A stretch of 64,000 bases of DNA from contig NC_087079.1 in NCBI RefSeq assembly GCF_026151205.1, positions 13,286,445 through 13,350,444 of the forward strand. Reading direction: 5' to 3'. The stretch comes from Bolinopsis microptera (Eukaryota > Ctenophora > Tentaculata > Lobata > Bolinopsidae). The position numbers and the translations under genes are program-made. This document shows positions 1,641 through 61,190 of the stretch, one piece after another; position 1 is the first letter of the stretch, and the number at the start of each line of letters is the position of its first letter. The notes below the pieces were generated by a model. That model was not told the DNA's origin, did no database searches, and was given only the letters and a program-made list of their open reading frames with translations.

Positions 1641-1710
1641 GATTTTAAGTAGTAAATTACTATTGGATCTTGCACAACGTGCCTGTAAGTAGAAAATACC
1701 TCTTAATAGA

Positions 1711-2105
1711 GTATCTGGTCAAAACCTGGCACAACTTAGCGAGTTTAGAAGGTTTGAGATGTTATTTGTGCTCCCCAGGGTCTCTACTTCAAAAAAAATT
1801 TGGGTGGATAATTTTTTATGTTTGTTTAAACCCGTGACCACGCCCTTTTTAAAGCGTGGGAAAAATTTGACCAAAATTATCCAAATTTGCCTATATTATT
1901 TGATGAAGGTTTCTAAATGGCTTTTTATGATACTGTCAGTATAATTTGAACATAAACAAGGTAAAATACAATTAATTGAACTTAAGTGGCGCCTTAACCA
2001 CGCCCATTTACGCCATTTTTGGCGCAAAATGATGAAATTTCAAATTTTGTTGTAGCATCATGTGGGGTATCAAACCTTAGGTATTTTGACACGAGAAAAT
2101 GATTG
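1711..2105 (+). repeat. left terminal inverted repeat, 395 bp
   Basis: Reverse-complement match to 8098-8492 over the full length, with about ten differences. The outer tip is GTATCTGGTC and the inner limit is at GAAAATGATTG. A 61-codon open frame inside it is mirrored in the other TIR and is a by-product of the repeat, not a gene. Confidence 0.9.
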
Positions 2106-2244
2106 ATCGTGACATTATGCTTCTCAGGGGCTATCTAAGGTGAGCAAGCTGTTCAAATAAAACTCGACATTATAAAGCAAATTATCAAATTTAGAAAAGA
2201 AGTCAAAATCAAGAAACAAAGTATTGGTAACCTGCAATTAAAAT

Positions 2245-4131
2245 TCATCTATTCTTACAGTTGACACAAAGACAATAGTCAGTACACTTTAATTGTCCTT
2301 CTGCTCTAAAGCATGAACATACTTTCTTTTGACAACCTGTTTTGCACTTGCAAGTTTTAAACAGGTCGTCAGGTAGTAAGTTCAAGTTCTTGCAAGGGAA
2401 CAGTTCACCTTCGTTATCTACCCAACTAAAATCTGTTGGTTCCAGGTGGGTATAATCCATCGCTAAAAGATCACTGCATACCTTGTACAAAAACCACCAT
2501 CGTTTGATGTGTCCTTCTATGATAGAGTGAGAAGTAGGTTCTAATTCCAGAACTGAACTGGATCTCTTCCAAGTTAGTACCCTGAGCTCATCAAAGGTTT
2601 TGGCTAGACACGTGCTCCTGCAGCTTGCAGCAACCTTCACTAAGTACTGCTCAGCTTCTTGAATTTGCTCGTCATCCAGGGTAAACTTCTCTCCGAACTT
2701 TTTTAATGCAACTTCCGGGTTAGCATTAAGGCTGCTCTTCTTAGTCCCTATCTTACTTAGGTAGTCAGCGCCTGTACCCAAATGAGCTTTCAAAAGATTC
2801 TTGCAGAATTGTTCCCCCAGGTTCAAATACATTGTATGTATAGGAAACATCTTTTTGTTACTCCCTCGGCCCTTCTGAAGGTACAGTTTTTGTAGTCCTT
2901 GTTGACTGAAATGTTTGAAGTAGAACAACAAAAGTATCAAGACATCAGTATCATCAGAAATAACAGTGACTGAAGACGGTAAACAGTTAATGACATCCCA
3001 TTGAATGTGAGGTATTAGCCTCATATCCGCCTCTTCAAATGGCAGTTGAAGTTCACTTATTTCAGCAATATCCATAGCGCTGTTCAGATGTTGAGCTGGA
3101 ATCGAATCTTCTCCATCTACAGTGCCGCTAACTATCAATTGTCTATTTACTCGCTTGGCCAAATGAAGCAAATATGACTTGGCGAATCGTTGGAATTTCA
3201 CCTTATTATCACTTAGAGGCCAAAACTTCCCCATTTGTTCCGGTACCTTTGTGTTTTCGTTAATCATAGCAACCCTGATCACACCCTTAGCCTCGGCAAG
3301 CCTTATTCGTCGTTCACCACTCTTTAAGGATGAGTCAAGATAGCTATCAAATATGATATGAAACACCTCGGCAGTTGGGTTGTTCTTCAAAATTCTTGCA
3401 AACGCTTCAGCAATCATGGAACCGAATGTCCAAGAGACATGCTTCCAGGTTAGATTAAAACAGAGTGGCGCGGAAGCTTCTTGAACAGCCTTGTCAAGAT
3501 TCTGGCCTCTGATGAAAGACATAAAGTCAATAACAACAGCATTGTTTTCACCTGGAAGGTAGTTGTAATCGTCTACTGTCAGCTTTGCACGGTTTTCTAC
3601 TTCTCCAGACATTTCATGTTTTCTGGGCTTCTCCATAAGCAGGCCATCAAATAGAGGATTATATCTAGTAAGATCATACTTTAACACTTCACGCAGATCA
3701 CCTTTCTTTTCTTTGGCTATGTTCAAAGTTTTAATTGCCAACCTTGAAGACTTTTCATTCTTTTTGACTGCTTTTGAACTGTCGTCAAATTTAACTGATG
3801 GTACGTGATCAATGGGTAAGAGATTGTGCTTTGTGATCTTATCTGACAAGAGCCTGGTCTTATCAACATAAACAAGCCTGTGAAATTCATTATATTTTTC
3901 TTCCGCTTGTTTGAAGAATTGGCAATGTTGATCAGCGATATATACATCCGCATAAACTTGCGTCACAATGTTTTTAACTTGACCATGATGTTCTTTGAGG
4001 AAAGGGTTACCCTGTAAGCCTATGTACTCTGCGAGGTTTCGAGTATGACTATTGATCTCTTTAGTTTTTGATGGACGAAGATGATGATGAACTTGCATTT
4101 CAGAGTTACCTCGTGGTATATCAGGCACCAC
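2245..4131 (-). CDS. transposon protein 2: FEN1/PIN-like nuclease with CXC zinc tail
   Basis: A 628-codon frame in the -1 frame relative to protein 1, overlapping it by 112 nt. It has no convincing start: it opens at GTG, and the first ATG is at 4098. It may therefore be a continuation of protein 1 by frameshift, unseen splicing or mutation. Acidic blocks match the XPG/FEN1/PIN layout in order: VVIDFMS (D202), IIFDSYL (D262), FEEADMR (E366, E367, D369), ISDDTDVLIL (D393, D394, D396) and AHLGTGADY (D456). The C-terminus has nine cysteines (594, 596, 600, 605, 607, 616, 620, 622, 625) in CXC/CRC spacing, as in tesmin/TSO1-type DNA-binding domains. The family knowledge is solid for both domains; a role in cutting or binding element ends is inference. 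Confidence 0.7.
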   Translation of the reverse strand: MVPDIPRGNSEMQVHHHLRPSKTKEINSHTRNLAEYIGLQGNPFLKEHHGQVKNIVTQVYADVYIADQHCQFFKQAEEKYNEFHRLVYVDKTRLLSDKITKHNLLPIDHVPSVKFDDSSKAVKKNEKSSRLAIKTLNIAKEKKGDLREVLKYDLTRYNPLFDGLLMEKPRKHEMSGEVENRAKLTVDDYNYLPGENNAVVIDFMSFIRGQNLDKAVQEASAPLCFNLTWKHVSWTFGSMIAEAFARILKNNPTAEVFHIIFDSYLDSSLKSGERRIRLAEAKGVIRVAMINENTKVPEQMGKFWPLSDNKVKFQRFAKSYLLHLAKRVNRQLIVSGTVDGEDSIPAQHLNSAMDIAEISELQLPFEEADMRLIPHIQWDVINCLPSSVTVISDDTDVLILLLFYFKHFSQQGLQKLYLQKGRGSNKKMFPIHTMYLNLGEQFCKNLLKAHLGTGADYLSKIGTKKSSLNANPEVALKKFGEKFTLDDEQIQEAEQYLVKVAASCRSTCLAKTFDELRVLTWKRSSSVLELEPTSHSIIEGHIKRWWFLYKVCSDLLAMDYTHLEPTDFSWVDNEGELFPCKNLNLLPDDLFKTCKCKTGCQKKVCSCFRAEGQLKCTDYCLCVNCKNR

Positions 4132-7100
4132 TCCGCAACATAATCAGCTGATTTAGTGTTGCCAATTATCCCATGAGAACTCTTGGCACTCTTATTGATA
4201 GTCTGCTCAAGAGCTAGGTCTGGGGATACAGCATTAAACGACCCAGGTGTTCTCTTTACTACGAAATTTCCTCGAATAAATGCATCATAGAGTTCAGGGT
4301 GGGTTGTTTTGGCCCTTTTTAATAGCTCAAGATGAAAAGATCCGTAGCGTAAATAATTCAACGCATCACAGCCCAAAAATATTGGTAGGAGGCGTTCCAA
4401 AGTTTTCATGTTAAGGAAGAAGTCCCCATCTCTCTCAGAACGCACAAAATCTTTAATTGTGTCGATGATTTTCACAAAGTTGAGCCAAAATCTACATTGT
4501 GATGAGTTTTCACTACATTTGATTGAGAACGCTTCGATATCATCCATTAGTCGTTTCACTTCTTTACATGTTTGCAGTTCAGAAATTAAAGTCGTCGACT
4601 CAGTTTTGAGGTTCTGTACAAGAGCACACTGCAGCTGATCAAGTTTCTGTATTGCTATTGAGTAGTCGTTCATAGAGTTCTCTTTCCAGAAAGCTTCCAT
4701 TTTGAGCTTAGTAAGTGCATCACCTAGCATCATCAAACCATCAAATGACCGATAATAATGAGAGCCACTCATTACAGCTTCGACAGTTTTCGGTCCAAAT
4801 ATGTTACACTCAATGTAAGCGTCTTCTACCCCAGAGCCCCGAACGAACTTACCAGCACAACGTAACGCAGACTTTGTCAAATGAAAACCGCCGAGAAAAG
4901 GAAATATCCGCTCAAAGACGTCAGGTTGTTGGAGATAAATCTTCGTCACTAGGTGATAGACTCCTTCATCGCATATAACAGGCAGTGTCTTCTGTTTCAA
5001 AAGTGCTGCAATGCTAGCGCAGTTCTGCAAAAGGCTGTAAACTGTCTCTATTTTGGTAATGGGGTGTGGAAAGATGGGGAGATATCCAACCGTTTTCAAC
5101 GGTACATCGTTGCTAGTTGATGTGAGAACTTCACAACCGGCCCAAGTTGGTATATGTGTGAGTTGCTGAGTTTCTGGGAGTGGAGTTGATATGTTCCTTG
5201 TAAGATTAAGTACCTTTTCTTTTCTCTCATCAGTTTCGTATTGAAATCGTTCTGATTTGAAGCTTGATGGTAAAGGTTGCTCCTTGCTTTTGAGGTAAAA
5301 TGGCAGCAATTTCTGGAACGGCAACTTTGATATGTACTTCCTGCCTGATACTACAAAATCCGTATGGTGGGAAACTCTGCCTTTGGTAGGAGGGCGGTAG
5401 TTTCTTTGACTGAACGGTACAGTTTGATACATGACCAAGACACTGTCGTGGGTTTCGTTCTTTCCAGTTATCGATGATTGGTCATTATGGTCAAAATTAT
5501 CTATCCCCACACTTGTCTCCTGATTCTCATCAAAATTACTCGGCAGCGAGACTTTCATAAGTAAGTACTTGGTCATGATAAATAGCCCTAACAGCGCTCT
5601 CAGCCTCAAAAGTTCTGGATAGCTAATGCAGAATCCCAGGTGGTTGGATGCTGTGATAAGTTCCCTACTGTGACTTTTATGGTAAATTGCATGAGCTTGC
5701 ATGATATGGAAAGGTGTTCTTATTTCTCCATTATTTGCCATATAATGCATAACCTGAAAGAGGGAGTTTGCTTTGAGAATCTTTTTCGGACTGTTTGTTA
5801 AAACTGATTCAGTTTCATCTTCGATTTCATCGTCAGTTTCTGATATTGTATCTGTTGCCACACTCTTCTGATACTTGAGGAATGTTGCCTTGCTGATATT
5901 AAGCAAACCCCCCAAAAAATCCATTACGGACTCCGGCATTCTTGTATCCCTCAGAGCAGTCTGCAAATCTACAGCATCACAAAATCTGTCTTCAAGCCCA
6001 AAAGTCATTCCTCTCAGCTTTGTTCGTAAAATTCTTCCTGCAGATTTCACTTCGTTCAGGACTTGCAGCTTTTGGATCATCGAGGCAGCATCTGTTGAGG
6101 AGGAATACACGACTTCCGAGTCGCTTTTCCTGTATGGTTTACAGAATGACACTTGATCGGAAAATTTATCAACAACAAATTTTTTAATCTTGTGATTGTA
6201 AAACTTGCCGTCTGGGTGTTCTGCAGACAGAAAATCCCGAATACTTGAAACTGGCAGTCCATATTCTCTATCAATTAATTCTTCGATTATTGGAGTTACT
6301 TGATTTTCGTATATTTTCGATGTTGATGGAGAATCAGAGGAAATGTAAGTGATTTCACAGTTCTTGTGAGCATAGCAATATGATTTCACACACTCTCGTT
6401 CTTCGTCAAATTTCTCTCGAATCTTGTTACTTAGTTCATCGTCGTAGTTATCAACACTCTTAGCGATTAGTGCTTTAATCTGTCCAACGGTCAAAAGATT
6501 ACGTGATTTATCAACAGGTTCCTCGCATAAAAGGCATTTCGTAACCAATCTTTGATAACGGGATAAAAGTAACGCCAAACAGTTGTTGTGATAGTAGAGA
6601 TCCTGTGCGATCAGACGTTCGACTGAGTCTATATCAGCTAACCGCACCGCTGCACTTTCATCTTTGAGATGTTTTATAGCCACAAGCACCTGTTTTGCCC
6701 TTTCAACTTCACAAATTCTGTACTTTTCTCTGATGTTTTTACCATTTATTGTAGTCTGCACCGAGTCACACATAAAACATTTGGTAGAATTCAAAACATG
6801 CCCTTTCGTCTGTATCTCAGAACCTGAAAAAGACATCTATAAATAACTTAAATGGTCTGTTGTTTTTTCTTAACTATTAGTAAAAGGTTGAGTGTTCCAA
6901 ATATATTTTGTACACCGTACAGCAATCATAAAATTTTGAAGAACAGTATAAAATCAAATTTCCATCAAAAGTGACACACATATTTTAAGGATCGATTTAA
7001 AAACAATCAAGTATAAATCGATTATTAGTTGATTGATAATCTTAATCAGGTAAGATTTCCAACAAAGCGATAATTTTTATGACAGATTGGACGTTCATTA

Positions 7101-7820
7101 CTTGGAGTGTTTCTATTGGAAGGGGTTTTGCTTCGTGTATTCCGTTCTGTTACGTTCGAACTCTTAGTATCAGTAGACTGTTTACTCTTAAATTGTGCAT
7201 AAAGTCAGCAGACAGAATATATGACATAATTTGACCATTTAATGTTGTATTGCCTGTATTAAAATATAGGAAGATGTTCTTGGCAAAGGATTGAAAGTTT
7301 AACTCACGTCTTTGCTTTCATCTTCCTCCCGTGCACGTTTTCTTTCTTTAATAGCATCTAAAGTTTTCTTGTGTACATAATCCTTGTAGCACCGATTCAA
7401 TTTCGCGTGATACTTGAATCCATTTGGTAGCAATGCAATACGTCCTAATACCTTTCTATCTGCTCGTGTTTCGGCAGCCTAGAAAAATAGGCTAAATCTA
7501 TTGCAAATTTTATGCTGCGACACCTCAGGAGGTATTGTAAGGAAAGAATTAAAAATTGTCAAAACCACACAATTAAATGTTGAAATGAATTTGCAATAGT
7601 TGTAATAGTTGTAATGACTTGTTAAGATTACCTGCAATACTTTTGTCCTGCCATTGTCACTGCTACTAAGTTTGAAGAGTGTTGTGCTGGCGTCTAAGCA
7701 AAAGATACAGTGTTTTTCTGGATCGTATGCCGATTCTTTAGATAGTTTAAGAGATATTGATCCGGTAGGCTGTGACCCTCCAGCCCCTGAATCATGACCG
7801 CTACCCCCAATGCAGCTCAT
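4020..7820 (-). CDS. transposon protein 1: zinc modules plus large central domain
   Basis: Model: join of 7632-7820, 7308-7478 and 4020-6836, all phase 0, 1058 aa. Donors are CAG|GTAATC and GAC|GTGAGT; acceptors are TTTTTCTAG|GCT and TTATTTATAG|ATG. The 938-codon last exon could also be read alone from its own ATG. Similar putative metal-binding modules recur: CIFC with a downstream H-C in exons 1-2, CFMC (C20, C23) with YYHNNC (H83, C86), and CLLC (C101, C104) with C154/H157/C160 (numbering from the 938-codon exon). A central domain has ICDEGVY (D623), FLGGFH (649-652) and RGSG (666-669). The end carries NYLRYGS and ALEQTINKSAK (875-885). Acidic D623 and the GGFH block could be part of a nuclease site, but that is inference. 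The frame ends inside the start of the nuclease frame, with a 112 nt overlap. Confidence 0.7.
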
Positions 7821-8097
7821 AAAATTGGGTTGTTTGCAAAGGCAACTGTTTAACGAAGTTAGCACAAAAACTGCACAAATTTAACGCAAAGAAATAAAAT
7901 AATCATTGTATCGATTTTAGGGGTTTTAGTCAATGTCATGGGACATCACTTATCAGTTTTTTGCTTGCTCACTTGGTTTCAAATTACAGGAGGTCCTTAG
8001 TTTTATCGGCTACATTAAAGGAATTTATCACGAGTAGGTGATGTTAACCAGAACAATAACTGATCAGGGAACACTCTATTCGAAAAAATACCATCAC
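6837..8097 (-). other. introns and 5' region of the transposon gene
   Basis: Holds two short introns (6837-7307 and 7479-7631) and the 5' leader of protein 1 up to the inner edge of the right TIR. No TATA box stands out. A pyrimidine-rich TTTTTCAG at 6824-6831 would make a stronger acceptor than the one used in the model, but it shifts the frame. Confidence 0.4.
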
Positions 8098-8492
8098 CAA
8101 TCATTTTCTCGTGTCAAAATACCTAAGGTTTGATACCCCACATGATGCTACAACAAAATTTGAAATTTCATCATTTTGCGCCAAAAATGGCGTAAATGGG
8201 CGTGGTTAAGGCGCCACTTAAGTTCAATTAATTATATTTTACCTTGTTTATGTTCAAGTTATACTGACAGTATCATAAAAAGCCATTTAGAAACCTTCAT
8301 TAGATAATATAGGCAAATTTTGATAATTTTGGTCAAATTTTTCCCACGCTTTAAAAAGGGCGTGGTCACGGGTTTAAACAAACATAAAAAATTATCCACC
8401 CAAATTTTTTTTGAAGTAGAGACCCTGAGGAGCACAAATAACATCTCAAACCTTCTAAACTCGCTAAGTTGTGCCAGTTTTAGACCAGATAC
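8098..8492 (-). repeat. right terminal inverted repeat, 395 bp
   Basis: Mirror copy of 1711-2105. It lies upstream of the element's minus-strand genes, so it should carry or border their promoter. Its outer tip is 44 bp from the ATG at 8537. Confidence 0.9.
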
Positions 8493-8536
8493 AGGATTAT
8501 CTGTTCTATGCTTAACCCACCTTCTTATAGGACAGA

Positions 8537-20433: not shown

Positions 20434-23085
20434 TCACATGAGATTCTCCCTCTGGCTGAAGTTCCCGTAGATGGGCAGGGCCCATGTTTCGTGTTGTCTT
20501 GTGTACACAGCTCTTTTTCTCTCTTCCAGTGCGCTTTGGATCCTGTCGTTTGTGATCTGAAACGGAACTGCTCATTTGCTCATTCCTAAAATAAAGGATT
20601 ATAATTTCAAATTTTGACATGGATCTTGGAACACCCTGTACTTGTAGTTACAAAAACGTCGAAGAAGTGTGGAGAGATTTGGACTTTATTTCAACATTTT
20701 AGACATTTTCACAGTTTTCCTGATAGGTACATTCATTTTTATAACAGGATCGTTTATGGCTTGTTATTAATGACTGTATGCTTTGAAGAAATCTTGAAGG
20801 ATATAATAATAAAGGATATTTAATTTTGTAAACTAGAAAGTTAAATCAGTGTTAAAAGTTAACAAGAAAACAGCAATCTTATAATGGTGAGTGTTCTCTG
20901 CATATTAATGAAATTTGATACGGTCCCACATTGAGCCCAAGAGGTAATGTGAAACTCGTTTTAATCAGCATGTTTACCTCACTGGTAACCATGGTAATTG
21001 GCATAGCAACATAAACATTTTGGGGATTCAGTCACCTCTAACAAGGTTCTAGTTTATATCTCACATTGTCAGGGTGAACTACAATTCATTCATGAATTAG
21101 ATATCATGATAAATTGTAAGTGGAGCACCAGCTTTAATTTTATCCACTGTATGAGAGCTGAGTCTCAAACAGGATAAAAACTGAACCTGAGAACTCGCTT
21201 TGCTGGATTATTTGTTGGGCATTTAGCATGTTAAAAGGAACGCCATGCAACTACAGGAGGGACATCTCATTTTGCATCATTGCCTCCTTCATTACATAAT
21301 CACAATTTTCTACAGACCCATTATAATATTTACAGGAATTAAAACTATTTGCACAGATGCAAGACAGTTATGAAGATTTGGCGATTGCCAGTAACTCAGT
21401 AACTATTTCCAGTCTGCACTGCTCCTTCCAGAGCCGGGGAGGGGTGGATATCGGCTATTTAATCGATAATAAACGAAATTTACCGAGAAAATTTGCCGCC
21501 ACCCTTCGTGGGAGCAATTAGATTATCACCAGAATTTAATAGATTCTTTAAATTTCAAAAACTGTTTTAGTAACGATGTTGGATTCCTAATTTTTGATTA
21601 AACAATATGGCAAACTGCAAAAATTGTTTATATTTCATAAAAATTGAGATGAGGGTGCGCAGCAATCAATTCTTTACGTAATTAAGTGATTTATTTAATT
21701 TTCTGCGAGTTTATACAAATAAGTAAATTCGTGACACTTCGCAGTCCGAATTAAGGTTTCTCCGATTTTCACAAGTTACACGAGGCACCTTAAAAAATAA
21801 AATCATTAGCGATGAGATAAAATAGTTATGCGCAGAAAAACTCAAAGAAAGTTTAATCAATCTTAAGCGTATTATAAACACAGGAAACATTGTATGCCAA
21901 TTAATATCTTTCATTAATCTCTCTGATCGACTGATAACTCCATTGCTTCCACTAATATCCTACCTTCGAGAGATGATGAAAAGGAGGGCCAATAGTATCA
22001 GTTACCAGTCAGTAACCAGTCAGTAACCAGTCAGTAACCAGTCAGTAACCAGTCAGTAACCAGTCAGTAACCAGTCAGTAAACAGTCAGTAAACAGTCAG
22101 TAACCAGTCAATAACCAGTCAATAACCAGTCAGTAACCAGTCAGTAACCAGTCAGTAACCAGTCAGTAACCAGTCAGTAACCAGTCAGTAACCAGTCAGT
22201 AACCAGTCAGTAACCAGTCAGTAACCAGTCAGTAACCAGTCAGTAACCAGTCAGTAACCAGTCAGTAACCAGTCAGTAACCAGTCAGTAACCAACCAGTA
22301 ACCAGCCAGTAACCAGTCAGTAACCAGTCAGTAATTAGTCAGTAACCAGTCAGTAACCAGTCAGTAACCAGTCAAATAATATCCTACCTTGGAAAGATGA
22401 TGGTTGTTTTTTCCCATTCCTCTAACGGGCGCCCCAGGGTAAGGAAAAGGAGGGCCAATAGTGTTTGAGCGAGATTTGAAGGGGATTGCCAGCGGAATGT
22501 TCCGGACATCCTGCTGAAATTTAGACATGTCTGGTTCTGAAATAAAAATAAATTTCAACGTAAAATTAGTAGGTTGTAAGGATCAAAAGGATAGTTCACA
22601 TATTACATAAGCCAGAGTTTGCCTTTTCAGAGTTTCAGACGTCGGAAATCATTTTTACATATAAATATTATGTTGAAGTTAACCCAAGCCTTTCCGAACC
22701 CCCTGAGGTATGGAATATTTGAACGATCTTTAATCATGATTTTGGTCGCTCTCCAAAAATCTAATTCTAGGACATAACAGTTTTGGTTGCGAATCGATTG
22801 AATTGGGTTTCATTTGGCTGGTATCACAAACATAGCGTCTAGTATAAGAAATCCAGTAGCTAGAAATTAACTTGAACGGTCGCAAAATATTCTGCATAAC
22901 ATAATATTGAAAATCATATTGCAAACTTTCTAACCTGGCAAACTGTTTGTCGTTTTGAGGGCTTGAACAAGCTGATGATGAGATACCGAGTCACTGCAAT
23001 GTTTCAACGGCTCCAGCTTTCGTTTAAAGTGAGTTTTAGAGGGCTTGTCTTGTACCATAACCCACCGGGGACTGGACTTGTCCAT
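20434..23085 (-). CDS. unrecognised three-exon protein, 140 aa
   Basis: Model: join of 22935-23085, 22388-22536 and 20434-20556 (minus); 423 nt, phases 1 and 0. Acceptors are TTACAG|GA, TTATTTCAG|AA and CGTTTCAG|AT; donors are CCAG|GTTAGA and CCAAG|GTAGGA. The ATG lies two bases into the first coding exon with G at -3 and +4, so a 5' UTR exon is expected upstream. The protein starts MDKSSPRWVMVQDK, has a Pro/Gly patch (IGPPFPYPGAPVRG) and ends in a charged stretch (ALEERKRAV, then ALPIYGNF). No signal peptide, membrane segment or known domain. All three frames of the last exon are open, so the frame rests on phase consistency. The introns hold two 11 bp minisatellites. Function unknown. Confidence 0.6.
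21964..21996 (-). pseudogene. shortened copy of an exon 3' end with its donor site
   Basis: The minus strand encodes TIGPPFHHLSK followed by AAG|GTAGGATATTAG. This matches the end and donor of the exon at 22388-22536, minus an internal stretch of 15 codons. It lies at the far edge of the 11 bp array, within the downstream intron, and has no acceptor of its own. Confidence 0.7.
21999..22374 (-). repeat. 11 bp minisatellite array 1 (CAGTCAGTAAC)
   Basis: About 34 near-perfect copies. It begins about 14 bp downstream of the 5' splice site at 22388/22387 of the three-exon gene and ends at the copied exon fragment 21964-21996. Confidence 0.95.
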
Positions 23086-23923: not shown

Positions 23924-24115
23924 CTAGTAACCAGTCAGTAACCAGTCAATAACCAGTCAGTAACCAGTCAGTAACCAGTCAGTAACCAGTCAGTAACCAG
24001 TCAGTTACCAGTCAGTAACCAGTCAGTAACCAGTCAGTAATTAGTCAGTAACCAGTCAGTAACCAGTCAGTAACCAGTCAGTAACCAGTCAGTAACCAGT
24101 CAGTAACCAGTCAGG
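23924..24115 (-). repeat. 11 bp minisatellite array 2 (same unit as array 1)
   Basis: About 17 copies of CAGTCAGTAAC, 1.55 kb from array 1. On the minus strand it begins immediately after AAAAG|GTACC, a plausible 5' splice site at 24119/24118. Confidence 0.95.
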
Positions 24116-28300: not shown

Positions 28301-31300
28301 ATGTTACAATGGGTAATTGGTTGGATATTTAGGTGGAGTCAGGATAATCTTGTGATTATTGGCCCCTCCCTTATGGTTTTATTGGCAATTTGGCACGGTA
28401 TAATAAAGCTAATTTACTTTTTGAAAGTCATAATTTGCTTATGTGCTTTTTAGTTTGTCAATATGAAAGGATTAACGTAAACAGGGAATGCTGGACCATA
28501 ATCACCATTTCTTTAACAAGTAAGTTCTTTAACAGTTTAACAAGTATCAACTCATTTTGGAGGCTGTCTTCATAAGTAATAATTTCTATAAGTTACGGTG
28601 AGAATTCCTTTTCTCAAGGTTTCTGTCTGATACTGCTTAGCTAGTTAAAAGTTATACACGTCCATTTATTCCTTCTATGTGAAGAAATATACTATTTCTC
28701 CTGGTAATATACTATTTCTCCTACCTTAATGTGGGAGGTGCACTAAAAATGCACTATTTCTCCTACCTTAAAGTGGGAGGTGCACTAGAAATACACTATT
28801 TCTCCTACCTTAAAGTGGGAGGTGCACTAAAAATGCACTATTTCTCCTACCTTAAAGTGGGAGGTGCACTAGAAATACACTATTTCTCCTACCTTAAAGT
28901 GGGAGGTGCACTAGAAATGCACTATTTATCCTACCTTAAAGTGGGAGGTGCACTAGAAATGGCCCGACTCTCCACGCTTCCCTCCACCTTGTTGAAGTAG
29001 CCGGGCGCATACTCTGGTGCTTTATACGACTTGTCCCCCGGGCTTGCAAGTCCTATCCCGTTCCTGGTGTTCGTTGCTGAAACAAACTGTCTTGTTAGAT
29101 GTTGAATATGGTAGGGTGTTCTTTGCGAATATGTGGTCTTTGGGTACAATCACAACAATTATTATTATTCCATTAATGGTTGTTGATTTCTTTTGAAAAA
29201 ACATAAGCATCAGCAGTTGTCAATCACTGAATTTTTTGAGATCCACTAATTCAGGATTCAGGTTATTTTATTATACTGTAACCAGTAATCCCTCCGCACC
29301 AGAAATTAAACTTGGGCTGTTAGATCTTACGTTAGTTTTAAGCAGACACTAAAAAATCATCACTTTAAATAAAAGGGCGTTTTTGTCAGAAAAAAACTTC
29401 AAAATCACGTTTAAATATCATGCACAAATTTAATCAATACATTGGTGATTATATTCAATGAATAACATTCATGCATAATTCATGCGCATAATTATTCATG
29501 CGTTGTCACAGCACATCAACTCACGACTTCGCTTTTGTTTTATATCATCGTGAGGGAAAACACTGCTCCGCTTCAAGTGATCGTATCGGTGAGATACCCT
29601 AATGGTGAAATGTGAGTTGTGCGGCACGACCAACTTGTGCGGCAACTTGTGCGGTACGACCAACTTGTTTATAACCGTTTGTTTGACGGTAGCGAACAGT
29701 TTCAACCGTGCTTTTCTCGTGATAGTGTTTGGGAAAGTTAGAAACCTTGCCGTCAGTACCTCGAGCTGTACTTTCATGCACTAATGATAGAGTGAGTGAC
29801 GTTGCTTTGTTATACAACTGTTATATAACTGATCAGTTTCAAGTGTGCGATCATCGTACTTAATTCAAGCATGGCACTCTATTTAAGAAATGATTGCTTT
29901 GTAACTTGCCAAACGAACAATTGTTTATTATTGATTGTCACCGAACTGCTCGAAAATCAGCCGAAAATATCTGCGGCAGCGATTGTGAAGCAAAGCTCAA
30001 AGCAAGAGAGCCCCGGAAAGAGAAAGTGCATTAGAAGTAGAAACTACTGTTGTTAAGCAATTGTGGACGCCGATGTGAGAAAGAAATGAAACTGCTTGCT
30101 ACTAAAAACAAAATAATGGAAATGAAAACCACTAGTCTCAACTTTTAAAAAGCATTTACATTCAGCTATCGTGGTTTGTAGAAGTTTAAACTTAAAGAAG
30201 TTTTGAAGGAATATCTGAAATGATAATATTGTTGGAGCCACTTGTAACCACCTGTAACCCCCTGTAACCACCTGTAACCATCTGTAACACCTGTAACCAC
30301 CTGTAACCACTTGTAACCACCTGTAACCATCTGTAACCACCTGTAACCACCTGTAACGAGTCTGTAACTACCTGTAACCATCTGTTACACCTGTAACACC
30401 TGTAACCATCTGTAACACCTGTAACGACCTGTAACGACCTGTAACCATCTGTAACCACCTGTAACCACCTGTAACCACCTGTAACCACTTGTAACCACCT
30501 GTAACCATCTGTAACACCTGTAACGACCTGTAACGACCTGTAACGACCTGTAACGACCTGTAACCATCTGTAACCACCTGTAACCACCTGTAACCACCTG
30601 TAACCATCTGTAACCACCTGTTACCATCTGTAACGACATGTAACGGCCTGTAACACCTGTAAACACTTGTAACCACTTGTCACCTCGTGTAACACCTGTA
30701 ACAACCTGTAACACCTGTAACGACCTGTAACACCTGTAACCATCTGTAACACCTGTAACCATCTGTAACACCTGTAACGACCTGTAACGACCTGTAACCA
30801 TCTGTAACCACCTGTAACCACCTGTAACCATCTGTAACCACCTGTAACCATCTGTAACCACCTGTTACCATCTGTAACGACATGTAACGGCCTGTAACAC
30901 CTGTAACCACTTGTAACCACTTGTCACCTCATGTAACGACCTATAACCATCTGTAACCACCTGTAACTACCTTAACGACCTGTAACCACCTGTAACTACC
31001 TGTAACTACCTGTAACACCTGTAACACCTGTAACTACCTTAACGACCTGTAACGACCTGTAACGACCTGTAACGACCTGTAACGACCTGTAACGACCTGT
31101 AACGACCTGTAACGACCTGATCCTCTCTTCACTGAAGAGATAAGTAAGTCTCATTATGTTTAACTTTAATGTTTAACAAATTACCTGTGTTCAAGCTGTG
31201 GTGTTCCGTCTCTGCTCACCATATTAGTTTTATCTTGATACCCCAACCGTTTGTGCCTTGTGTAGTCAGGGAAATGACGTCTTCCTGCATCTGAACAGGG

Positions 31301-46363: not shown

Positions 46364-46858
46364 GTCACTAGGAAGCAACATCTTGTCACTAGGAAGCAGC
46401 ATCTTGTCACTAGGAAGCAGCATCTTTTCACTAGGAAGCAGCATCTTGTCACTAAGAAGCAGCATCTTGTCACTAGGAAGCAGCATCTTGTCACTAGGAA
46501 GCAGCATCTTGTCACTAGGAAGCAGCATCTTGTCACTAGGAAGCAGCATCTTGTCACTAGGAAGCAACATCTTGTCACTAGGAAGCAGCATCTTGTCACT
46601 AGGAAGCAGCATCTTGTCACTAGGAAGCAGCATCTTGTCTCTAGGAAGCAGCATCTTGTAACTAGGAAGCAGCATCTTGTCACTAGGAAGCAGCATCTTG
46701 TCACTAGGAAGCAGCATCTTGTAACTAGGAAGCAGCATCTTGTCACTAGGAAGCAGCATCTTGTCTCTAGGAAGCAGCATCTTGTCACTAGGAAGCAGCA
46801 TCTTGTCACTAGGAAGCAGCATCTTGTCACTAGAAAGCAGCATCTTGTCGCTAAGAAG
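46364..46858 (-). repeat. 21 bp minisatellite (TCACTAGGAAGCAGCATCTTG)
   Basis: About 23 copies, very uniform. Because 21 is a multiple of three, several frames stay open: MLLPSDK repeats on the minus strand (207 codons with a non-repeat start MDVTQNRAINLGA), CFLVTRC in another frame and SILSLGS on the plus strand. I do not call a gene: nothing distinguishes one frame, and no flanking splice or poly(A) signals stand out. Confidence 0.95.
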
Positions 46859-53909: not shown

Positions 53910-56900
53910 ATGAGCGAGCTCCTGTATTTTAGGTATGTGCAGTGTGCACCTACAGTGTTGTATGCCAGTGCTGGATAGCAATGAAATACTCCGAATTCGT
54001 GTTTTTTCTTGTTGTGAACTTTATTTTATTTTATTTCCCACGGCTGAAACTTTTAATTTTGTTTACAAACATTATTGGATATATCACTCGTTATTCTTTA
54101 GTCCCGACGATTATTAGTATTGTAATTTCCATGTTTTTTTCACAGGTATTTGTAATTTTTTCCGAAAAAATCACGTTCGTCCATTCCTCCCATTATTGAT
54201 ATTGAATCCCCCGCCTAACTGTGATGATGATGATCTAGTCTATCAGGTTTCAGGAGGCGTCCTAATATGGTGCAACTCATATCACTAGGCGTTGAAATTC
54301 CGGCACGTTATTCCAACACTGTCATAATATGCCAGTATCCCTCCCCTAACCGTCTTTACATTAAGTGAACAAGTTCACTCCGCAGGCTTTCACTCCGTGT
54401 TTGTGGCCTGGAATTAAGGCCGGGTTGCATTTCCTACCAGATGGCGTGGTTTAAGACTCGCCTTCCGGAACTGTTTCTAACGCAATGGACGTTTCTAGTA
54501 ATCTGTTTGGGTATTTTAACACGGCACAATTTATATTGTTGGTGCCCGCGATTGGTTGCTCAACAGTTCTGATAACTGTTTTGGTTTCACGGGATACTAA
54601 TGGGATATTGTGTTTCCTTATCATATGCTATTTTTAGTAAATAGTAACTATTCTCCGAGTAATGCTTGTCATGGCCATTAATTCTGCATGTCAGTTCAGC
54701 TTTCCACGCGGCATATCCATTTCATAGCTATTAGTCAGGATTCTGCCCTCTGATTGGAGTAAATCTGCCATCTCATCACCTTTTATTTTTACTATTATCT
54801 ACTATATTTACTCTTCTATCATTCAGCTCTTTCGGCTCACTTTTTGTCAGCTTAATTTTCTTGTAGTACAAGCATATTGCACAACTTGGCAAAACTTATA
54901 TAAACCTCACTCTGCGTTATAACAACATACGTTGCACTATTTGTTCTCTAGACCTTTCAGTATATAATGAATTTAGGATAGAAATATATTCATTGGATTT
55001 AACTTATCTCCGACTTATCAAGCACAGCTCTTTGCTTATTGATCATTGTGCAGCTTTTAACGGCCAGTAAATAATATTAGATGCATGGTGTCGCGGAGAG
55101 ATATGTTGGCGAATATTTTTTTGACTGGCTCGCAGTAATCCTGCCAACGTGCCATTTGCTCGGCCACTTGGCTTTGCTCGTCGTAGTTTGTCGTATGTTA
55201 GTAATTCATGATGAAATTGTCAAGCAAAATCTGACATATTCCTTTTTAAAATTTATTATGTGATTGAGATTCTGTACGGAAGGTTTTCCAAAGTTTCCTA
55301 TACGAAATTTATACTTGATTCGTATAATGCGATTGAGATTCTGTAAAGTTATTCAAAGTTTCTTGTTTCCAAATGTTCTCAATTTCATGATCACTAACCA
55401 TCCCTTCTTCTCTAGGTTATCACGTGACATGTTTGTGATCCTCATCTTCGCCGTTATCTTCGGTATGTGTATCATTCACAAGTCGAAGAAGCTCTACAAG
55501 TACCAGTATGGATCTTTCTCAAAACAAGTTGTCTCAGCTCTGAACATTATCGAAGATGAACTTAATTCGTCCCATCAGCCTCAGATAATTGATGACAGTG
55601 ATATGTCCACGATCTTGGACGCATCTAACGTCCATGTACCGGGAACATATATAGACATTTTGAAGGACCTCAAACGGGAGGGACACTTCACTTTGGGGGA
55701 GGGATTGTTAATAGCTAGCATGTTAAAAGACAAGCAGAACACAGACAATTATTATCACTTAAAGTCACCTAAGCCTGCCAACAGGAAGATTGAGAAGAAA
55801 CCAGTCTTCTTGGGCGGTTCTTGTAATCCTACCACCTGGAGAGGGGACATAGTCATCCCCATGTTCCAGGACCGTCACATCGACTTCTACAACCCACAAG
55901 TAGATGAGTGGACGGAGGCTCTAGTCCAGGCGGAAGCCAAGGCCAAGGAGCAGGCTCAGCTGCTCTTCTTCGTGCTTGACAACGAGACGCGAGCTCTAGC
56001 CAGTATAATGGAGGCTTGCTACTTCTTGGGCACCAGGAAACCCCTGACTCTGATCGTGAAGGAATACGATGGACAGGGCAACAAGTGGGAGATCATGGGC
56101 GAGGAACTGGACGAGTACGAGATCGATCTGCTGAACGATCTCAAAAGGTACGTCCTGGAGATCGCCAAGTTGGAGCACATTCCTGTGTTCAAAGACACTG
56201 CCACTGCTGCTCACTACGTTTCCGCTCTCTACGATGGTACCGCCGACTTCAAGGCTACCAGCAACAACAAAAGGATGGGAATCTCTGCTCTGAAGACGAT
56301 AGTCTCACAGGTGAAACACGCTGAAAACGCTTTCGACACCCACTCTTCTAAGTCAGGATTGATAAAGAACAGCGAACAGCTCTCCAAGATCTGCTGTAAC
56401 TCCTACAAGAGGATGGACTCCGACCCTGAGGTGGAATCAACCATCTCCAGGTTAAGGAAGGTGAAGTACCCACTCGAGAAGGACCAGTACATGGCTTACT
56501 ACAGCGAGTTGTACAGCGAACTCTCAGCTTCCACCATGTCCATGAGGAGAAAACGCAAGATGTCTTCCAGGAGGCGGATCATTGTTCCTGACTGGAGCGA
56601 CAACGCCTTCATCAAGAAGAAAAAGGGGGAGATCGAAGCTTTCGAGAACCTTCTCCGGACGAGCGATGCCCCTGTGGAGATCCTACCCTTCTACGACGTG
56701 CTGTACGAATCCAGACCCGACGACGTCCACCTGATGATCATACCGGAAGGTGAACACTCGACCTTGTGTATGATGCAAGCTGCCTTCCTCTTAGGACGAG
56801 GCAGTCACGTGGTACTCTACATGAAGGACTATTGTGCGGACGGGACCAGGGCCCCACCCTCTCCCACCGCACAGAAGGACTACCGACGGTGTAGGGTGTA

Positions 56901-56994
56901 CCTTCAGGACATGGCCATCCTACATGGGATGCCCATATTCGATAGTCCTGAGGAGTGCGTGGAACATGTTAAACATTCCTTGGTGGGCTCTTAG
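53910..56994 (+). CDS. Raw-like membrane protein with tandem deoxyribosyltransferase-like domains
   Basis: Model: join of 53910-53932 and 55416-56994; 1602 nt, 533 aa. Donor TTTTAG|GTATGT, acceptor CTTCTTCTCTAG|GTTATC, phase 2; ATACCATGA start with A at -3. Residues 13-28 (MFVILIFAVIFGMCII) form one membrane anchor followed by HKSKK, so the body should be cytosolic. Domain 1 (about 138-275) has VFLGGSCNPTTWRGD and a nucleoside 2-deoxyribosyltransferase-like block ASIMEACYFLG (Glu 207). Domain 2 (about 396-528) repeats the fold (HLMIIPEGEHS, TLCMMQAAFLLG, PIFDSPEE) with Gln 462 where domain 1 has Glu. This architecture recalls Drosophila Raw, linked to JNK signalling, but I assign only 'Raw-like'. 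Substrate unknown; a signalling or binding role is as likely as catalysis. Without the first exon, translation could start at residue 13. Confidence 0.82.
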
Positions 56995-60082: not shown

Positions 60083-61190
60083 CGCCCTTTATCTGGGTGC
60101 CACAGTGTAACACCCTTTATCTGAGTGCTACAGTGTAACACCCTTTATCTGGGTGCCACAGTGTAACACCCTTTATCTGGGTGCCACAGTGTAACACCCT
60201 TTATCTGGGTGCCACAGTGTAACACCCTTTATCTGGGTACCACAGTGTAACACCCTTTATCTGGGTGTCACAGTGTAACACCCTTTATCTGAGTGCCACA
60301 GTGTAACACCCTTTATCTGGGTGCCACAGTGTAACGCCCTTTATCTGGGTACCACAGTGTAACGCCCTTTATCTGGGTGCCACAGTGTAACACCCTTTAT
60401 CTGGGTGCCACAGTGTAACACCCTTTATCTGGGTGCCACAGTGTAACGCCCTTTATCTGGGTACCACAGTGTAACGCCCTTTATCTGGGTACCACAGTGT
60501 AACACCCTTTATCTGGCTACCACAGTGTAACACCCTTTATCTGGGTGCCACAGTGTAACACCCTTTATCTGGGTGCCACAGTGTAACATCCTTTATCTGG
60601 GTGCCACAGTGTAACACCCTTTATCTGAGCTGGGTGGCACAGTGTAACACCCTTTATCTGGGTGGCACAGTGTAACACCCTTTATCTGGGTGGCACAGTG
60701 TAACACCCTTTATCTGGGTGTCACAGTGTAACACCCTTTATCTGGGTGCCACAGTGTAACACCCTTTATCTGGGTGTCACAGTGTAACACCCTTTATCTG
60801 GGTACCACAGTGTAACACCCTTTATCTGGGTGCCACAGTGTAACACCCTTTATCTGGGTGCCACAGTGTAACATCCTTTATCTGGGTGCCACAGTGTAAC
60901 ACCCTTTATCTGGGTGGCACAGTGTAACACCCTTTATCTGGGTGGCACGGTTTTAACAACCTTTATCTGGGTGTCACAGTGTAACACCCTTTATCTGGGT
61001 GCCACAGTGTAACACCCTTTATCTGGGTGCCACAGTGTAACACCCTTTATCTGGGTGCCACAGTGTAACACCCTTTATCTGGGTGTCACAGTGTAACACC
61101 CTTAATCTGGGTGCCACAGTGTAACACCCTTTATCTGGGTGTCACAGTGTTACACCCTTTATATGGGTCTCACTGTGTAACACCTCTTGC
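60083..61190 (+). repeat. 28 bp minisatellite, about 39 copies
   Basis: Unit GTAACACCCTTTATCTGGGT followed by GCCACAGT, with variants of the 3-4 bases after GGGT (GCC, GTC, ACC, GGC). Confidence 0.97.

Follow-up and report, generated by a model that had tools for sequence, protein, structure and literature searches.

What is the element, bounded by long inverted repeats and filled with minus-strand reading frames, that lies in a 64,000-nucleotide stretch of contig NC_087079.1 of the ctenophore Bolinopsis microptera? This whole stretch (C8:13286445-13350444) is referred to below as the window. A preliminary description, made from the sequence letters, noted zinc modules, a FEN1/PIN-like nuclease and a CXC tail within the element, and suggested that these could be the machinery of an uncharacterised transposon superfamily. 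Here we describe the element as a transposon with terminal inverted repeats (TIRs) that occupies 6,796 bp at window positions 1704-8499. Our preferred answer, to which we give a probability of roughly 0.78, is that it is a degenerate copy of a cut-and-paste DNA transposon, autonomous when intact, that belongs to AcademX, the nuclease lineage of the Academ superfamily.

Ends, target duplications and unoccupied sites

Repeat search and the comparison of ends place the A-type end of the element (TAATAGAGTATCTGG..., plus strand) at 1704-2116 and the C-type end (TAATCCTGTATCTGG..., minus strand) at 8087-8499. Each arm is 413 nt long and the two are 96% complementary, so the near-identical repeats first reported at 395 bp are real and slightly longer. 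The element opens with 5'-TAAT at 1704 and closes with ATTA-3' at 8499. Read directly in the window, the flanks carry TCT immediately outside both ends (1701-1703 and 8500-8502), which we interpret as the two copies of a target-site duplication (TSD).

The 264.65-Mb genome contains at least 42 matches to a 395-nt TIR query, with the best 40 of 97 candidates scored. Twenty stretches were retrieved, and both ends are present in 16: the window copy, L040-L043 and L047-L057. The others (L044, L045, L046 and L058), whose stretches hold one end only or ends that are altered, were left out of this set. All 16 two-ended copies start with TAAT and end with ATTA, and 15 of them lie between exact direct repeats of 3 bp; as a control for chance, a shared 3-mer was seen in 12 of 240 mismatched left/right pairs.

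Unoccupied targets tell the same story. L050 is inserted in repeated sequence, and a query consisting of its two flanks joined by a single ATC has 41 matches in the genome. In 27 of these the match spans query positions 1-215, i.e. the target is unoccupied and holds one ATC (26 matches at 95-100% identity, one at 89%), whereas the occupied site matches as two halves, 1-109 and 106-215. Similarly, L055 is inserted into one unit of a tandem repeat; the remaining units are unbroken (AATAGGTGCATGG), as against AATAGG, element, AGGTGCATGG when occupied. Because occupied and unoccupied sites can be compared for both L050 and L055, we conclude that 3 bp are duplicated on insertion. A TSD of TA was suspected, since all ends read TAAT, and was ruled out by the flanks outside TAAT and by the empty sites of L050. 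The host repeat of L050, which has 27 full-length unoccupied matches elsewhere, looks reverse-transcriptase-like by eye.

The preliminary description had recommended collecting copies with intact TIRs and defining the TSD from empty sites. Doing so yields the 3-bp duplication, and bears out the claim that the element is a transposon: TIRs, TSDs, dispersed copies and unoccupied targets, the features that define a DNA transposon, were all found.

One gene and its conserved domains

The long frames of the element (938, 628 and 128 residues) are all on the minus strand, as had been noted; three plus-strand frames of 81-93 residues overlap them. Two of the long frames had been taken for separate proteins. 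In relatives they are one: a single open frame covers both in L041 and L042 (1,568 residues), L043 (1,550) and L046 (1,524, and without the usual C-terminal end). When the two proteins are compared with these relatives by phmmer, the match to the first stops at about residue 910 and the match to the second resumes at residues 7-13. At the junction between them (4107-4113, minus strand) about 52 bp that are present in L041 are missing from the window copy, which therefore cannot encode the whole protein in one frame. The N-terminal part (4107-6809, minus strand, with its exon start predicted) carries the motif pairs CFMC/YHNNC and CLLC/YAHKNC, followed by the transposase-like core; the C-terminal part (2245-4113, minus strand), delimited by frames and phmmer, is out of frame with it.

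At least 14 genome loci among the best-scoring candidates have one open frame of at least 963 residues that is matched by both protein queries, and a 15th, L060, has the same order of core and nuclease as judged by eye. A 435-residue frame at C9:11378355, although matched by both queries, and an interrupted frame at C9:116568-119837 are not counted among the 14. L040 (C25:10622-19000) has about 1.1 kb of extra sequence within the gene; its frame departs from the family near codon 126 and there is a second break near the end of the core. At C6:15387661-15394493 three nuclease-CXC matches lie in tandem, about 2.5 kb apart, two of them in 666-residue frames for which no transposase match is among those listed.

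Upstream of the long frames we predict two further minus-strand exons. Exon 1 (7632-7820, 63 codons) begins with MSCIGG and includes CIFC, while exon 2 (7308-7478, 57 codons), which has splice signals, includes YHAKLNRC. Both are conserved in four aligned copies, and their reading frame continues into exon 3 at 6809. This putative three-exon gene would encode a protein of about 1,660 residues in intact relatives. The added 5' exons supply the first of three N-terminal zinc-module-like motifs, which read CIFC...YHAKLNRC, CFMC...YHNNC and CLLC...YAHKNC. The layout of zinc modules, core, FEN1-type acids and CXC tail is kept in relatives at 22-30% identity.

The core was examined in a ten-sequence alignment (A2) that sets the window copy beside nine relatives, of which the distant ones have 22-26% identity; L038 is a fragment in this alignment and lacks the D446 region. 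Five residues, D623, G649, H652, D873 and E877, are invariant; a sixth, D446, is almost invariant. The suggestion that the core of the first protein is conserved thus holds for D623 and for G649 and H652 of GGFH. We propose that D446 in DNFDH (5499-5501), D623 in CDEGVY (4968-4970) and E877 (4206-4208) are the first, second and third acids of a candidate catalytic triad of the DDD/E type; the GGFH motif lies at 4881-4892, and all are on the minus strand.

The nuclease-like domain extends from the Asp in VVIDFM to that in TGAD (2764-3528, minus strand). A second alignment (A3), of nine sequences made up of the window copy plus eight relatives, has 13 invariant columns, of which five are Asp (D19, D186, D211, D213 and D273 in its own numbering) in FEN1 order. 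Ten archaeal FEN1 sequences have invariant residues that include D27, D80, E152, E154, D173, D175 and D236. The motif order VVID, FDxY, EEAD, DxD, TGxD is like that of FEN1/XPG, and the last D-to-D spacing is 60 here compared with 61 in archaeal FEN1. The acidic residues originally quoted are present, in a conserved FEN1-like order. A search of NCBIfam returned nothing relevant, and of the pattern-matching stretches in viral contigs (17) and prokaryote genomes (95) none was confirmed as a relative.

The C-terminal CXC (tesmin/TSO1-like) tail (2248-2358, minus strand) matches Pfam TCR below the curated cut-off in the window copy (E = 0.0019) and above it in the relative L059 (3.1e-5), which supports the tail as first described. 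Its cysteine pattern resembles that of LIN54/tesmin, with an hmmsearch match to the LIN54 CXC structure 5fd3 at E = 0.04, but unlike those proteins it has a single CXC. The residue before CxC is Tyr in both LIN54 repeats and, to judge from the alignment, this Tyr may make the minor-groove contact; at this position the window copy has V, L059 has Q and L060 has R. LIN54 has the consensus site TTYRAA according to the text available from PMC4974476. The idea that the CXC tail reads such sites in the TIRs is unsupported: the number of sites is not significant, there is one CXC only and the tyrosine is not kept. The scan used TTYGAA and its reverse complement and left out L049, L052, L056 and L057. 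One site, at position 84, is found in 23 of 24 ends and another, near 335, in 21 of 24 (12 of the 16 two-ended copies), and a single TIR has three sites against a mean of 1.05 (P = 0.081).

Probable placement in the Academ superfamily

In the available portion of PMC10045372, which reports the AcademX lineage from Kojima 2020, AcademX elements carry a nuclease with the transposase and have a TSD of 3 or 4 bp, AcademH elements carry a helicase and have a TSD of 9-10 bp, and the length of the TSD is described as seemingly linked to which accessory enzyme, nuclease or helicase, is present. A RecQ helicase is mentioned for Academ in an excerpt of PMC3627910, and curated bivalve Academ elements have a mean length of 5,565 bp in an excerpt of PMC10294476. 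Compared with these descriptions, the 3-bp TSD seen here falls within the range given for AcademX and not in that of AcademH, and no helicase family appears among the Pfam listings for the window copy and relatives. The FEN1-like motifs of the second domain are conserved, and the alignment of the core provides candidates for all three DDD/E acids. As a transposase with a nuclease and a TSD of 3-4 bp has already been published for AcademX, at least in the part of PMC10045372 referred to, the combination does not call for an uncharacterised superfamily. Most likely the element represents a new family of Academ, likened to it by architecture and TSD, not by sequence.

Several results weigh against this placement. 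Searches with hmmsearch and phmmer found neither a transposase nor a FEN1/XPG match in the PDB. An hhalign comparison of the nuclease profile with archaeal FEN1 was not significant (Prob 0.35 on a scale of 0-100, E = 0.17), and a negative control with the transposase part gave the same values; the comparison placed VVID and FDSY on the first and second FEN1 aspartates, which carries no statistical weight. Pfam DUF6589 (PF20231), a family of unknown function, was sub-threshold in six of the nine members of a further alignment, A1 (best 3e-4). It scored 14.5 bits in the window copy and 19 in L025 (6e-4), against a curated cut-off of 27, was not listed for L059 and L060, and goes unmentioned in the open-licence literature searched; its weak matches span the second half of the core. 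L057 is the sole two-ended copy without a TSD, and at some other loci, e.g. L025 (957 and 671 residues), the two parts of the gene are in separate frames. The preliminary description had named a match to a known superfamily as evidence against its own proposal, and the match found here is one of architecture and TSD, with the named Academ proteins compared by description and not by sequence. That the AcademX nuclease is of the XPG type is general background.

The outcome of the FEN1 comparison also fits a DNA-binding or structural remnant of a PIN/FEN fold in place of an active flap nuclease, as does the second acid (in FDSY), which is Glu in L029, L033, L038 and L025. However, five of the 13 invariant columns of A3 are Asp at FEN1-like positions and at least 14 loci have the core and the nuclease-like domain within a single open frame, and we regard a remnant as unlikely. 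Could the element instead belong to a DDE superfamily of its own, as yet unnamed, whose XPG/FEN1 nuclease was gained separately from that of AcademX? No Pfam transposase family reaches threshold, the PDB has no match, and ‘Academ’ and ‘XPG’ nowhere occur together as whole words in the open-licence literature searched. Against this, a nuclease with a 3-4 bp TSD is the signature published for AcademX, to go by the same portion of PMC10045372, and a second unnamed superfamily is less economical because AcademX already has both traits; we find it quite improbable. That a host gene was merely caught in an inverted duplication is hardly tenable, for although L045 and L046 are segmental copies with common flanks, the TSDs and empty sites refute it and near-identical copies are dispersed in the genome.

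If the element is an AcademX-type transposon, its parts suggest a division of labour. The N-terminal zinc modules and the C-terminal CXC domain would bind DNA, the DDD/E-type core with its candidate acids would cut and join the ends, and the XPG/FEN1-like domain may process strands at the junction left by excision or made by insertion. No experiments on such a transposon nuclease were found in the open-licence literature, in a search short of a full survey. For an Academ-type group, the copies described here form a clean, recently mobile set in which the ends are placed exactly and both TSDs and empty sites are available.

Unlike ends and nonautonomous relatives

The two ends are otherwise near-identical, yet bases 5-8 set them apart (A-type versus CCTG) in all 16 two-ended copies; in the window these bases are found within 1704-1711 and 8492-8499. 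Each copy has one end that reads TAATA[GAC]AG and one that reads TAATCCTG. Of the five two-ended copies with a gene, L039-L042 have the C-type end on the side where the gene starts and L043 has it on the opposite side, so in L043 the interior has apparently been flipped while the end difference was kept. This suggests selection for unlike ends. As a tentative and rather speculative explanation, the transposase might pair only an A-type with a C-type end, and the fused flap nuclease might act differently at each of them and so determine the order in which strands are cut as well as the 3-bp TSD. Such a ‘one of each’ rule would account for a 4-bp difference that survives in every copy despite interior flips. 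If true, it offers a simple view of what keeps such transposons from bringing two identical ends together.

The window copy is itself damaged, but it belongs to a recently mobile set: L041 and L042, on separate contigs, are 99.5% identical, and L048 and L049, both nonautonomous, are 99.7% identical. A query with the upstream gene part of a distant relative, L030, matched four near-identical places, its own among them, and three more at 79-83%. The 11 nonautonomous elements with both ends (L047-L057) are 3,811-6,374 bp long and match the outermost ~320 bp of the window TIR at about 85-87%; their similarity to L041 is confined to the ends. Frames of at least 150 residues occur only in L053 and L055, and these are repetitive. 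Their TSDs show that these elements with similar outer ends have moved, and they were probably mobilised in trans by a protein of the window type. L047-L058 have TIRs of their own of up to about 1.17 kb (about 94% in L048) and no transposase gene.

Outside the element, the window contains tandem arrays at 21998-22374, 23926-24114, 28711-28961, 30238-31119, 46364-46858 and 60085-61184, with units of 11, 11, 42, 10, 21 and 28 bp, respectively. The array at 46 kb lies in a 207-residue frame of repeated MLLPSDK, and a plus-strand open frame of 576 residues is found at 55264-56994.

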